Below, piece by piece: positions 1-4,989 of a DNA stretch of 40,314 nucleotides (position 1 is the stretch's first letter; the number at the start of each line of letters is the position of its first letter). The position numbers and the translations under genes were made by a program. The stretch lies in the NCBI GenBank assembly GCA_937890335.1, contig CALBXO010000443.1, positions 1 to 40,314 of the forward strand, given 5' to 3'. The notes under the pieces were generated by a model. That model worked only from the letters and a program-made list of their open reading frames with translations, made no database searches and had not been told where the DNA came from. The stretch is from an uncultured Pseudomonadota bacterium (lineage in GTDB: Bacteria; Myxococcota_A; Bradymonadia; Bradymonadales; GCA-2716585).

Positions 1-738
1 TACATAATCACGGCAGTCGTCCTGTCGTTGATTACGTTCATCGAGCTCATCGTCGTCCCGGAGTTCTGGCACCTGATCTTTGGGGACTCCGTCGCGGAGC
101 TGCCCAATAGCGTCGTGGTGCCCTCGCTGTACATCCTGGCCATCCTCAAGTTTGCGGGTGTCATCGGGCTGTTCATGCACCTCAAGGACGACCGGAAGAT
201 CTACTCATTGCTGTTCCTGTCCCCACTGGCCATCGCGGTGATCGTCGTGACGATCCTCGGCACGTTCACGGTCATCACGTACAAGCCCTTCTCCGGCGAG
301 ACGCCCGGCATGGTGGCAGATTTCGCCAACCAGAAGGACGGGTACCAGGAGACCGAGCGCATGTGGCGCGACGCCAAGCAGGAGCGACCCAAGCCCTCCA
401 CGGCAGAGGAGCTCACCGCTGGATTCGCCGCGGCCAAGGCTGAGGGCTTTGCCAAGGGCAAGACCATCTACGACACCCGCTGCGCCGCGTGCCATCGCGC
501 CGACGGTGGCGGCGGTATCGGGCCGGCCTTCACCGACAATTGCTACAAGAACGGTGGCACGTTGACCGAATTGGCGACCTCCATCCGTGAGGGCGTGCCC
601 GGTACGGCGATGGCCCCCATGAAGTACGAGTATTCGTTCCCCGAGATCGAGCAGACCGCCTTTTACGTCCGCAGCCTTCGCGACGTGAAGGTGGACGGCG
701 CCAAGGGCTGCGAGGGCGACGCCTACACTGGCGAGTAA
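1..738 (+). CDS. Cytochrome c oxidase subunit IV fused to cytochrome c (5' partial)
   Basis: The reading frame is open from base 1, so the true start lies before the window. The N-terminal part has three hydrophobic segments, with the phrase LKFAGVIGLFMHLKDD between the second and third. This matches the small prokaryotic subunit IV of caa3-type heme-copper oxidases. After the third segment come a linker of about 60 residues and a mono-heme cytochrome c domain with heme motif CAACH at 481-495 and a downstream Met in AMAPMKY as the likely axial ligand. The topology of the family places the heme domain in the periplasm, where it could pass electrons to the oxidase. In most caa3 enzymes the cytochrome c is fused to subunit II, so a fusion to subunit IV is unusual. 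Subunits I-III are presumably upstream, outside the window. Oxidase role: well supported. Direct electron entry through this domain: inference. Confidence 0.85.
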   Translation, partial: YIITAVVLSLITFIELIVVPEFWHLIFGDSVAELPNSVVVPSLYILAILKFAGVIGLFMHLKDDRKIYSLLFLSPLAIAVIVVTILGTFTVITYKPFSGETPGMVADFANQKDGYQETERMWRDAKQERPKPSTAEELTAGFAAAKAEGFAKGKTIYDTRCAACHRADGGGGIGPAFTDNCYKNGGTLTELATSIREGVPGTAMAPMKYEYSFPEIEQTAFYVRSLRDVKVDGAKGCEGDAYTGE

Positions 739-790: not shown

Positions 791-1729
791 ATGTGGTCCC
801 TTCCTCACTTCATCCTCCCGGCGCACCCGGGAAACCTGCTCTACCAGCCTACGCGTGAAGTTGCGTTCTCCTCCCTGGAGGAGTGGTTCGTCTGGGACTT
901 CCACGAGAGCATCTTCCTCGGCACGGTCGCCCTCGTCGTGCTCTACACGGTGGGCGTCACCCACTGGCGCAAGAAGTACAAGCTGTCGGATACGCCGGTG
1001 TCGACCCGGCAGGCCGTCACGTTCTACGGCGCAATGGTGCTGATGTACCTGTCGCTCGACGGCCCGCTGCACCACCTGGCCGACGAGCTGAGCTTTGCCA
1101 TGCACATGGTGCAGCACCTGCTGCTGCAGATGGTATGGGCGCCGCTGTTCATCCTCGGGCTGCCCGGCTGGCTCATCAAACCGCTGGTTCAGAAGGACTG
1201 GGTCAAGCGACTCGGCCGCACCCTGACGCGGCCCCTCTACGCGTCGATGCTCTTCCAGGGCTGCATCTGGATCTGGCACTTCCCGCCCATCTACGAGCTC
1301 GCCCTGACGAACCACCCGTTCCACATCGCCGAACACCTGCTTTTCATGGCCACGGCGGTGATCTTCTGGTGGGTGATCTTCAGCCCCATCGAGGAGACGC
1401 CGCGCCCGAGCCACGGGTGGCAGATGGTGTTCCTGCTTCTGAACCTCGCGCCCATGAAGGCACTCGGCCTCATCATCACCGTCCACAACGAGCTGCTGTA
1501 CACCTTCTACTCGGTGCAGCCACGCCTGTGGGGCCTGACTCCCATTGGCGACCAACGCGCGGGTGGGTTGCTGATGTGGGTGGTGGGCGGTCTGCCGCTA
1601 TGGGCGGCGCTCGCGTATGTGTTCTGGCACCTGCGCCGAAAGGGCGAGCCGGACAAGGGACTCACAGGGGTCCCACATCTGGACGCCCAGATCCTGGCGC
1701 GTCGCCAGGCAGAGGAGGCCCTCGGATGA
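791..1729 (+). CDS. ctaG: CtaG, caa3-type cytochrome c oxidase assembly factor
   Basis: This is a 312-residue multi-pass membrane protein of the Caa3_CtaG family, which helps assemble caa3-type oxidases, probably by helping copper insertion. It shows the family pattern of His and Met in membrane segments, such as PLHHLADELSFAMHMVQH followed by LLLQMVWAPLFILGLPG (residues about 93-130), and further hydrophobic segments to the C-terminus. The ATG has a GGAG a few bases upstream. It lies 52 bases after the subunit IV/cytochrome c gene and its stop overlaps the next start (ATGA), so it belongs to the same assembly operon. The name refers to the Bacillus-type CtaG; it is unrelated to Cox11, which is also sometimes called CtaG. 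Confidence 0.88.
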   Translation: MWSLPHFILPAHPGNLLYQPTREVAFSSLEEWFVWDFHESIFLGTVALVVLYTVGVTHWRKKYKLSDTPVSTRQAVTFYGAMVLMYLSLDGPLHHLADELSFAMHMVQHLLLQMVWAPLFILGLPGWLIKPLVQKDWVKRLGRTLTRPLYASMLFQGCIWIWHFPPIYELALTNHPFHIAEHLLFMATAVIFWWVIFSPIEETPRPSHGWQMVFLLLNLAPMKALGLIITVHNELLYTFYSVQPRLWGLTPIGDQRAGGLLMWVVGGLPLWAALAYVFWHLRRKGEPDKGLTGVPHLDAQILARRQAEEALG

Positions 1730-2229
1730 TGACTCGCTCCCACGCGCCGCAGCTCACACGCTGGGTCGCCACCCTCTCGTTGCTTGTCCTCTGCGGTGCC
1801 GGCTGCAAGGAGGCCCAGCGGCCCGCCCACCTGCCCGAGCCCAAGGCCCCCTCGTCCGAGCCCACGACCGTGTACGCGACACCAGAGTCCGGGCGGATGC
1901 GCGTACCCACCAGCGACGGCAAGGCGTGCTTCGTCGTAGGCTTTGAACCGGCCAGCCCAAAAGTGGGTGAGCTGTTCCTGGCGCATACGCAGGTCCTTGG
2001 ACCCGGTTGCAATGGCCCGCTGGCCGAGGCCGAGTTCAGCCTCGATGCCACAATGCCGGACCACGCCCACGGCATGGTCACACGCCCCGTTCACGAAGCT
2101 GCGCCCGGCACCGGCAACTGGACGACCAAGGGAATGAAGTTCCACATGCCGGGGTATTGGAAGGTGGACCTGAAGGCCGGCGAGCATGCTGCGAGCCTCA
2201 ATTGGAACCAGAGCGCAGCTGCGCAGTGA
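1726..2229 (+). CDS. YtkA/FixH-like lipoprotein
   Basis: This 167-residue protein begins with a hydrophobic leader ending in LCGAGC, a plausible lipoprotein cleavage site, then a Pro/Glu-rich linker and a compact beta-rich domain. The domain carries ATMPDHAHGM and later KGMKFHMPGYWKVDL, which is the YtkA-like pattern also seen near FixH proteins. Its Met and His residues could bind copper, but that is an inference. The first ATG (1726) overlaps the ctaG stop; a second ATG follows immediately at 1729. Its place between ctaG and a di-heme peroxidase suggests a periplasmic role in building or protecting the oxidase. The exact function is unknown. Confidence 0.72.
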   Translation: MMTRSHAPQLTRWVATLSLLVLCGAGCKEAQRPAHLPEPKAPSSEPTTVYATPESGRMRVPTSDGKACFVVGFEPASPKVGELFLAHTQVLGPGCNGPLAEAEFSLDATMPDHAHGMVTRPVHEAAPGTGNWTTKGMKFHMPGYWKVDLKAGEHAASLNWNQSAAAQ

Positions 2230-3602
2230 CCCTTCCCAAACCCAGCCGGCCAACACAGCTGCGTCCCCTGCGTTGCGCCGACGTGTCAGTGGGGGGCCCC
2301 GCTCGACTGCGCGCGCCAATCGGCCACCGCCGCCCCCTGCTTCGCGCAGCCTGGCGCGCGGCGTGCGCTGTCGGTCTGGCCTGCGCACTGGGCGCGTGCG
2401 AGGCGACGCCGGCCCCGACCGCCGTCACCCCCGAGGAGCTCGCCCTCATCCAGAGCCTCTCGCCGCCGCCGACCATTCCTGCGAGCCCTAGCAACCGCTA
2501 CGCCGACAACGACGAGGCCGCCGCGCTCGGTCATGCCCTGTTCTTCGACACCCGGCTGAGCAAGAACGGCAAGGTGGCCTGCAGCACATGCCACGTCCCC
2601 GCGCTCTACTTCACCGACGGAAAACCCCTCGCCGAGGGGATCGGCAAGGTGGCCAAACACTCGCCGAGCCTCTTCGGTTCGCACTTTGCCCCGTTTCAAT
2701 TCTGGGATGGCCGCGCGGACAGCTCCTGGTCACAGGCCCTGGGCCCCCTCGAGGCTCCGACCGAACACGGTTTGACGCGCCTTGCGGTGGCCCACCTGAT
2801 GGCCAGACACCACGCAGAAGCCTACACCGCGGTCTTTGGTCCATTGCCCGATCTGTCCGATTCCGAGCGATTCCCTGCCACGGGGCGCCCCCATTCCTTG
2901 GATCCAGCGCACCCCGAACACCTGGCGTGGGGCTCCATGGCGGAGTCCGACCGCGACGCGGTCAATCGCGTCTTCGCCAACACGGGAAAGGCCCTGGAGG
3001 CGTACACGCGCAAAATCGTCCCTGGCCCAGCCCCCTTTGACGCCTACGTCGCCGCCCTCACCGCGGGCGACGCGACCGGTGGTGGCCACATGAAGCCTGG
3101 GGCGGTCCGCGGGCTGCGGGCATTTGTGGGCGATGCCCAGTGTATCAACTGCCACAACGGCCCGCTGCTCACAGACTTTGCCTTCCACAATCTCGGTCTG
3201 CCCGGAGACCGCGACCTCGGACGGTCAAAAGGCGCATCCCAGGTCCTCAAGAGCGAGTTCAACTGCCTGGGTCCCTACAGCGACGCGGACGGGAAGTGCG
3301 ACGAGTTGGCCTATCTCGACCCAGCGTTCGAGGACTTCCGTGGCGCGTTCAAGACACCGTCGCTGCGCAATGTCGCCAGGACCGCACCGTATATGCACGC
3401 CGGCCAGTTCGCGGATCTTCCGGCCGTGATCGACTTCTACAAATCGTTGCCTGGCGAGCCGCAGATAGGCCATCGCGAGCTGGTTCTGAGCTTGCTGTCC
3501 ACCAAGGTCGCCACCGCGGATCTGGTCGCGTTTCTCGAGTCCTTGACGGGGCCGCTGCCGGATGAGAAGTGGACCCGGCCCCCCGGCCCGAGGACGCCAT
3601 GA
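2226..3602 (+). CDS. Di-heme cytochrome c peroxidase (MauG/CcpA family)
   Basis: This family reduces hydrogen peroxide with electrons from small cytochromes, or in MauG-like members oxidises protein residues. Two heme motifs are visible: CSTCH (2580-2594, about residue 119) and CINCH (3141-3155, about residue 306), at the usual di-heme spacing. Family phrases include ALGHALFFDTRLSKNG, QFWDGRADS and FKTPSLRNVARTAPYMHAG. The leader is Arg-rich and hydrophobic and ends in ALGAC, so it is probably lipid-anchored. The chosen GTG start at 2226 overlaps the previous stop as GTGA; GTG codons at 2283 and 2289 are alternatives. The frame is open further upstream, but that part overlaps the YtkA-like gene and looks non-coding. 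The stop overlaps the Sco gene start (ATGA). The location ties it to oxidase assembly or oxidative stress around the oxidase. Confidence 0.85.
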   Translation: MTLPKPSRPTQLRPLRCADVSVGGPARLRAPIGHRRPLLRAAWRAACAVGLACALGACEATPAPTAVTPEELALIQSLSPPPTIPASPSNRYADNDEAAALGHALFFDTRLSKNGKVACSTCHVPALYFTDGKPLAEGIGKVAKHSPSLFGSHFAPFQFWDGRADSSWSQALGPLEAPTEHGLTRLAVAHLMARHHAEAYTAVFGPLPDLSDSERFPATGRPHSLDPAHPEHLAWGSMAESDRDAVNRVFANTGKALEAYTRKIVPGPAPFDAYVAALTAGDATGGGHMKPGAVRGLRAFVGDAQCINCHNGPLLTDFAFHNLGLPGDRDLGRSKGASQVLKSEFNCLGPYSDADGKCDELAYLDPAFEDFRGAFKTPSLRNVARTAPYMHAGQFADLPAVIDFYKSLPGEPQIGHRELVLSLLSTKVATADLVAFLESLTGPLPDEKWTRPPGPRTP

Positions 3603-4231
3603 ACAAGCACAGCCTGCTCCTTCTTCTGGTCGTGGTGGCGTCGAGCGCCTGCTCCAAGCCGCCCCCGCTGGACGACCTCGGTACAGTCCCTGAGTGGACG
3701 GCGACGAGCCAGACCGGGGAACCCGTCGGCACAGCCCAACTCGCCGGCAAACCCTACGCCGTGAACTTCATGTTCACCTCGTGCCCAAGCTCATGCCCAC
3801 CGCTGGCCAAGGCCACAGGCGATCTGCAGCAACGCGTCAAAAAGTGGTCCCCCACGCCGCCCCACGCGGCGCATCTTGTGACCATCACCGTGGATCCGGA
3901 GAACGATACGCCGGAGAAGCTCGCCGCGTTCGGGGAATCCTACGAGGCGGACCCAGCCATGTGGAAGATGGCGCGGTCGGCGTCCTACGCCGACATGGAA
4001 GACCTCGTCACCAAGGGCTTTTTCCTGCCGATCATGCGCCGCGACCTCCTCAAGGCCAAGACCGACGAGGAGCGATTGGCCCTGCTGAAGAATCCGACAC
4101 CGCTGGACACCGCGCACAGCGTCCACTTCATGCTGATCGACGGCGAGGGAGTCATCCGCGGGCGCTTTGACAAGTCGGACGACGGACTCGACCGGCTGGA
4201 CGCCGCCCTCAAGCACCTGGCGGGCCAATGA
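3599..4231 (+). CDS. Sco1/SenC/PrrC-family copper chaperone lipoprotein
   Basis: Sco proteins deliver copper to the CuA site of cytochrome oxidase or keep its cysteines reduced. The sequence has the hallmark CPSSC (CxxxC) in FMFTSCPSSCPPLAK, the VTITVDPENDTPEKLAAF segment of the thioredoxin fold, and the conserved metal-binding His in DTAHSVHFMLID. The leader, rich in Leu and Val and ending in SSAC, suggests lipid anchoring to the membrane. The ATG at 3599 overlaps the peroxidase stop, and the gene's own stop overlaps the surf1 start. At 210 residues it is a normal length for the family. Confidence 0.92.
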   Translation: MNKHSLLLLLVVVASSACSKPPPLDDLGTVPEWTATSQTGEPVGTAQLAGKPYAVNFMFTSCPSSCPPLAKATGDLQQRVKKWSPTPPHAAHLVTITVDPENDTPEKLAAFGESYEADPAMWKMARSASYADMEDLVTKGFFLPIMRRDLLKAKTDEERLALLKNPTPLDTAHSVHFMLIDGEGVIRGRFDKSDDGLDRLDAALKHLAGQ

Positions 4232-4989
4232 GAGTCCAATTCAGCTGGAAGCTCACGGTCGTCCTGATCGTGATCCTCATGGTCGTAGGCAACCTCGGCA
4301 GCTGGCAGGTGCGCCGGTACAACGAGTCCATCGAGACCATTGATCACTACCGCGTGCAGCATGACGAGCTGCCGCCGCTGACCAGCCTTGATGTGCCGGA
4401 CGGCGAGCAGCGGCTCAAGTACCTGCACCACCGGCGCGCGAGTTTTGAGGGACACTTCGTCCCCAGCGAGATCCAGCTCCTCACCGCGCGCTACAAATTC
4501 CAGATTCCGGGCTACGGCGTGCTCATCCCCACCAGGGTGAAAGACAAGAAAATCCTCGTCTACATCGGGTGGGTGCCGCGCGACAACCTCAAGGAGTACC
4601 TGGCCACTCTGGACCCCGAGAAGCCGGTCACAGTCAGCGGGCGCCTGACCGCCGGGGACAACACCGGCAACGTGAGCGACCCGGCCGGAGAGCACCTGGG
4701 CCACACCACTTGGCGAGAGACCAACCTGGCGGCGCTCAAGGAGCGGATTCCAGACTTGGAGGACGACGTGCTCCTGCAGGCCGGTGAGCCCGCCACAGGC
4801 AAACAGATCAGCATCGAGGACTATCCGCTGGGCGGCTACAAAGGCCCCTGGCACGTGCCCCCCTCTCGACACGTCGAGTACGCGATTCAATGGTTTGGCG
4901 TGGGTGTGGCCGCAATTGGCGTATACTTGGCCCTCACGTTTCGGCGCCGCAAGCGCGAAGAGGAAGACGAGCCTGAGGCCGCCGAGTAG
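4228..4989 (+). CDS. SURF1-family cytochrome oxidase biogenesis protein
   Basis: SURF1 proteins assist cytochrome oxidase assembly, in bacteria probably by heme a delivery to subunit I. The protein has the expected layout: an N-terminal membrane segment leading into NLGSWQVRRYNE, a periplasmic domain with RRASFEGHFVP, GYGVLIPTRV, VYIGWVPRDN and VTVSGRL, and a C-terminal membrane segment introduced by HVEYAIQWFGVG. A highly charged Arg/Lys/Glu tail follows. At 253 residues it is a typical length. The ATG overlaps the Sco stop (ATGA), closing an unbroken coupled series from ctaG. Confidence 0.92.
   Translation: MRVQFSWKLTVVLIVILMVVGNLGSWQVRRYNESIETIDHYRVQHDELPPLTSLDVPDGEQRLKYLHHRRASFEGHFVPSEIQLLTARYKFQIPGYGVLIPTRVKDKKILVYIGWVPRDNLKEYLATLDPEKPVTVSGRLTAGDNTGNVSDPAGEHLGHTTWRETNLAALKERIPDLEDDVLLQAGEPATGKQISIEDYPLGGYKGPWHVPPSRHVEYAIQWFGVGVAAIGVYLALTFRRRKREEEDEPEAAE

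Follow-up and report, generated by a model that had tools for sequence, protein, structure and literature searches.

We analysed a stretch of DNA of 40,314 nucleotides (the window) that makes up the entire contig C443 (CALBXO010000443.1) of an uncultured Bradymonadales bacterium (assembly GCA_937890335.1), whose genome is spread over 972 contigs and is 91% complete with 4.8% contamination. At the left edge of the window lies ctaF::cytc, a frame of 245 codons without an internal stop in which the membrane domain of a subunit IV (CtaF) of the caa3 oxidase type continues into a monoheme cytochrome c (Table 1). An initial annotation of the sequence had proposed this in-frame union, which is borne out by the frame itself, the Pfam matches and the relatives described below; the CAACH motif for heme c attachment sits exactly where it had been placed. 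The annotation had also put the 5’ end beyond the window, and indeed the contig edge cuts the frame, as can happen when the window is a whole contig of a fragmented genome. Alignment with relatives suggests that ~17 to 41 N-terminal residues are absent.

Table 1 Features of the ctaF::cytc gene and of the genes downstream of it in the window.
Feature	Position	Strand	Evidence
ctaF::cytc, caa3-type oxidase subunit IV with monoheme cytochrome c, 5’ end cut	1..738	+	Open frame, Pfam, 26 aligned relatives
COX4_pro domain, three predicted transmembrane helices	7..249	+	Pfam (residues 3–83), AlphaFold model, hydropathy
Flexible linker	280..351	+	Model confidence (pLDDT) <50 at residues 94–117
Cytochrome c domain, CcoP-like	451..678	+	Pfam (residues 151–226), PDB sequence matches, trees
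CAACH heme c attachment motif	481..495	+	Sequence; His in 26/26 rows
Met204, likely sixth heme ligand	610..612	+	Met in 24/24 rows reaching the position
Cys181, possible disulfide partner of Cys237	541..543	+	Conservation pattern
Cys237, possible disulfide partner of Cys181	709..711	+	Conservation pattern
ctaG, caa3 oxidase assembly factor	791..1729	+	Pfam Caa3_CtaG, E 8.3e-56
YtkA-like putative lipoprotein	1729..2229	+	Pfam YtkA, E 4.1e-5, just under cut-off; same position in relatives
Di-heme MauG/cytochrome c peroxidase-like enzyme, start codon unsettled	2007..3602	+	Pfam CCP_MauG, E 9.2e-32; same position in three relatives
SCO1/SenC copper chaperone	3569..4231	+	Pfam, E 4.1e-18
SURF1	4228..4989	+	Pfam, E 1.2e-25

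The N-terminal part matches COX4_pro (PF03626) at E 2.6e-6 with 28.2 bits, slightly missing the gathering score of 28.9; this match and the position of the gene between ctaE and ctaG in relatives place it in the COX4_pro/CtaF family. The C-terminal part matches the Pfam model Cytochrom_C at E 4.5e-8 and also Cytochrome_CBB3, and combines the CxxCH motif, distal Met and fold of a class I cytochrome c. In the AlphaFold model, with a mean predicted local distance difference test score (pLDDT) of 79.9 (replacing an earlier model at 60.7), helices at residues 2–33, 36–59 and 62–93 are followed by a linker that is disordered and by a cytochrome c predicted with good confidence (block pLDDT 87 to 98, residues 131–240). 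COX4_pro proteins such as CyoD lie in the membrane with the N terminus inside and the C terminus outside. The three helices fit this topology, and the charges in the loop that links the second helix to the third agree with it weakly, so the cytochrome c would be periplasmic. CcoP chains, from the cbb3-type oxidases, top the PDB sequence matches of the cytochrome c domain, and the best solved relative in a fold search was also a CcoP (9g83_v, Z 12.2, 95 residues, root-mean-square deviation 2.3); that search is barely informative for the membrane part, whose absence from the match lists has no meaning.

The fusion is real and recurrent. Searched with a fusion profile, 377 sampled genomes from the phylum yielded 26 in which COX4_pro is joined to cytochrome c (four in the window’s own family, f1, 19 in f11, two in f28 and one in f26), a few of them cut by contig ends. 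A first protein scan of the genome contigs had confirmed no relative; an alignment scan gave ten, four of them full-length fusions, and three other f1 genomes have the fusion at full length. The 26 proteins align across both domains, all match cytochrome c models, and 25 match COX4_pro (E 0.01 or better); the heme His and Met are invariant in the rows that reach them (Table 1). Relatives share the operon order ctaC-ctaD-ctaE-ctaF::cytc-ctaG. A gene at the contig edge of a fragmented genome could owe its form to a frameshift or an assembly error joining two genes, as the initial annotation had allowed, but with the joined frame common to 26 genomes, and at the same place in the operon in relatives, such an artefact is ruled out for practical purposes. 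The 21 complete f1 and f11 rows all have Cys181 together with Cys237, and the three f28 and f26 rows have neither; because they occur or are missing together, they may form a disulfide in f1 and f11.

In every one of the 19 operons in which it could be read (in the other seven of the 26 the fetched stretch ends before it), subunit II, CtaC, has a CuA motif followed by exactly one CxxCH. With a heme-copper COX1 and a CuA subunit II bearing cytochrome c, the operons of the relatives are of the caa3 type. The sole COX2 match in the window’s genome lies on another contig, C923, also with one CxxCH, and its cytochrome clusters with f1 CtaC cytochromes in a tree. Inspection of ctaC for its own CxxCH, as initially recommended, therefore gave a positive answer both in relatives and on C923. 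Because CtaC keeps this motif, the complex would contain two hemes c, one on subunit II and one on subunit IV. The initial suggestion that the fusion adds a second heme to the one on subunit II is thereby supported; the other suggestion, a different electron entry point, is not supported for the window’s oxidase.

Of the caa3 set, ctaC, ctaF and ctaG were seen in the window’s genome and ctaD is missing: a COX1 scan returned no A-type COX1 (none reaching E 1e-100), the only COX1 match being a cbb3-type CcoN–CcoO fusion. Since relatives have ctaD and ctaE between ctaC and ctaF, both genes probably lie here in a gap between contigs. A join of C923 to the window was rejected: the two contigs share no sequence at their ends, and C923 seems to finish in foreign sequence, so we infer the operon rather than read it. 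Near that end (L035 ~2750–2957, G000:C923) the C terminus of ctaC shifts abruptly, perhaps through misassembly.

In trees built on few columns, with some forks of low support, the cytochrome c domain of the window groups with CcoP and not with CtaC. Trees and PDB matches make it a CcoP-type domain in a protein that is not a CcoP by anchor or context: the fusion lacks FixP_N, which the genome’s own CcoP does carry, and scores 34.6 bits against a cut-off of 179.95 for the ccoP model. (Two truncated fusions were omitted from the cytochrome tree, and a later tree dropped eight more rows: five near-copies from f11, and two ActE and G062 for their long branches.) A duplicated CtaC cytochrome was rejected as the source of the window’s tail, as well-supported branches separate that tail from the CtaC cytochromes of f1, f11, f28 and f26; three other fusions (G053, G056 and G122) do have tails of the CtaC kind. 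A fused ActE was rejected as well, an ActE-like gene being still present beside the genes for alternative complex III (ACIII).

Among the 20 next relatives, fetched by the COX1 of G001, 16 (families f18 and f26) also have subunit IV–cytochrome c fusions. Their CtaC has one CxxCH in 15/15 readable cases, which makes 34/34 readable fusion operons for both sets pooled. Four of the sixteen were run against Pfam; all match cytochrome c models, and their COX4_pro matches have E values of at most 2e-5 while scoring a few bits below the cut-off of that model. In a COX1 tree that used part of the f11 rows, the fused lineages form one group with G290 and G064 (32 rows, 30 fused and 2 unfused; support 100/99). 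G097 and G138, in which subunit IV was not identified, are labelled ‘not fused’ in that tree, and both fall outside the fusion clade; the COX1 of G122 was not read, and G172 and G182 (COX1 60 and 65% identical) were not fetched.

The tails of these fusions are of two types. Type A (the window; f1, f11 and f28) groups with CcoP, and type B (f18 and f26 with G174, including the f26 member of the 26) groups with the two subunit II cytochrome domains of family f2, which belongs to the window’s own order. A single clade for both types was rejected by an approximately unbiased test (p-AU 0.0008), in which the grouping had been chosen once the first tree was known, columns were few, and two fusions are indistinguishable from one fusion followed by a domain swap. 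In type B fusions (L229–L243) the linker that leads into the cytochrome c contains two conserved Cys residues (CNAW...YCSSP-like), perhaps a disulfide. In f2 (L084–L087, L090), subunit II has two cytochrome c domains after CuA, and an ACIII-like gene run precedes the oxidase.

Six more genomes outside this group have a COX4_pro–cytochrome c frame: G053, G056 (f3), G062 (f13), G122 (f28), G208, G311 (f26). Three of the divergent oxidases, those of G311 (read on one contig), G208, and G056 (split over two contigs), have a CtaC without CxxCH, leaving the heme c motif on subunit IV alone, and they belong to a separate COX1 clade. The idea that the fusion replaces the usual entry point fits these three only, and is not supported for the window’s type. 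L074, from a record titled Thermus/Deinococcus group, also has such a frame, and because of it the trait may extend beyond the Myxococcota; L075–L078 from the same scan are not fused. One earlier scan, which is no census, took the listed matches (E to ~2e-10) with a frame of at least ~195 amino acids, of which 58 were read and five had a CxxCH; weaker matches that it missed, among them most of those of the window’s own type, were recovered by the fusion profile search. We tentatively propose, at rather less than even probability, that subunit IV offers at its periplasmic end a plug-in site for heme c modules, to which the lineage joined cytochromes of two or more origins (one CcoP-like, another of the f2 subunit II type), and at which electrons might enter some other oxidases with heme c on subunit IV alone.

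On the donor side, none of five f1 genomes gave a cytochrome b match. NrfD was found in four of the five, and the same four have ACIII-like gene runs, whose genes we presumptively named by their order and which include a monoheme ActE-like protein of their own. In F. johnsoniae, ACIII is reported to be the only source of electrons for the aa3 oxidase (PMC8552683). The cbb3 oxidase of the window’s genome (L036 1754–4697, G000:C369) has CcoN and CcoO in one protein (COX1 and FixO domains). Its CcoP has only one CxxCH, as do all five f1 CcoP proteins read; CcoP usually carries two.

In the textbook caa3 oxidase, electrons enter through one heme c on subunit II. The reading that we favour, with a probability somewhat above even, is that ctaF::cytc encodes the CtaF of a caa3-type heme-copper oxidase with a CcoP-like monoheme cytochrome c, giving two hemes c per complex, of which the added one relays electrons from the donor to CtaC. 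The cytochrome, in the periplasm, would hang from the third CtaF helix by a flexible linker, the complex would have the usual heme c on CtaC and an added one on CtaF, and the latter, being tethered, may relay electrons to the CtaC heme that come from ACIII or from the cytochrome c of ACIII. ACIII is favoured as the source because of the lack of a cytochrome b match in f1, the NrfD and ACIII-like gene runs, and the pairing of ACIII with aa3 in F. johnsoniae. The sequences directly show the fusion and its conservation, the heme ligands, the operon and a CxxCH on either subunit; that heme is attached, that the cytochrome lies in the periplasm, that the protein joins the complex and which way electrons flow are what we infer. 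Several observations weigh against this reading. The sister oxidases G290 and G064 have an unfused subunit IV; in the window’s genome ctaC lies on a different contig, the last part of which resembles neither ctaC nor ctaD, with no A-type ctaD found and the complete operon present only in relatives; and the positive-inside evidence for topology is weak, the loops having few charges.

The CtaF heme might instead be an independent entry, docking at CuA and drawing on a donor other than that of the CtaC heme, which would give the oxidase two inputs in parallel. In favour of this, the linker has considerable length and some disorder, and where CtaC has no CxxCH, as in G311, G208 and G056, the CtaF heme would have to reach CuA if it donates at all. 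However, these three belong to a separate COX1 clade, with G056 split over two contigs, and CtaC of the window’s type keeps the motif of the usual CuA donor in all readable operons, which makes parallel inputs unlikely here. The relay is also preferred to a mainly structural tail that would hold the oxidase to ACIII in a supercomplex with its heme little used: the heme ligands are conserved without exception in the rows reaching them, and more than one sort of cytochrome has been attached at this position, pointing to a redox role, so we regard this option as improbable. Finally, the CtaF cytochrome could serve another partner, either the cbb3 oxidase that the genome encodes, as the CcoP-like domain might suggest, or the MauG-like di-heme enzyme encoded within the operon. 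We consider this quite improbable, since kinship with CcoP is uninformative about the present-day partner, and the G064 oxidase, which is unfused, likewise has a MauG-like gene nearby, so that this gene does not track the fusion.

We know of no described caa3 enzyme whose subunit IV carries a cytochrome c, and to our knowledge the role of this small subunit is not settled. The window’s type shares the order ctaC-ctaD-ctaE-ctaF-ctaG, and a subunit II that has CuA and ends in a cytochrome c, with the caa3 oxidases of Bacillus subtilis and Thermus thermophilus, and differs in the cytochrome c on subunit IV. CcoP is the nearest kin of that cytochrome domain, whereas the anchor here is COX4_pro with three helices instead of FixP_N, and the operon is caa3 and not cbb3. 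The f2 subunit II, with two CxxCH after CuA, gives an equal number of hemes c per complex, but both are on subunit II and none is on the f2 subunit IV. In the literature, subunit II is the known place of the cytochrome c (PMC9145763, on B. subtilis), and COX1–COX4 and COX2–cytochrome c fusions are described (PMC4013037). The initial annotation had asked whether many relatives with the fusion were already described. Within the accessible open-licence PMC texts we found no discussion of it, and its sole trace is a bare row of Table A3 in PMC8756737, which lists COX IV open reading frames with a cytochrome domain (‘C1’; PKB63614.1, PIQ26724.1). These have the same domain pair, and the accessible text says nothing of their operon, their subunit II or what they do; that of PMC8239418 makes no mention of COX IV with a cytochrome.

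If the favoured reading is true, a second heme on subunit IV, gained repeatedly from different sources, would give a small subunit a redox function. Annotation that counts hemes on subunit II only would overlook it, and electron entry into these oxidases becomes a testable question.

Downstream of the fusion, the order ctaF::cytc, ctaG, YtkA-like, MauG-like, SCO, SURF1 is common to three genomes of f1. The YtkA-like and MauG-like genes lie within the caa3 operon in the window and in three f1 relatives, and a MauG-like gene with two CxxCH also occurs in f28 (L213, L214) and near the G064 oxidase. In G097 and G138, whose oxidases are more distant, a separate di-heme cytochrome c gene adjoins the oxidase (L244, L245).
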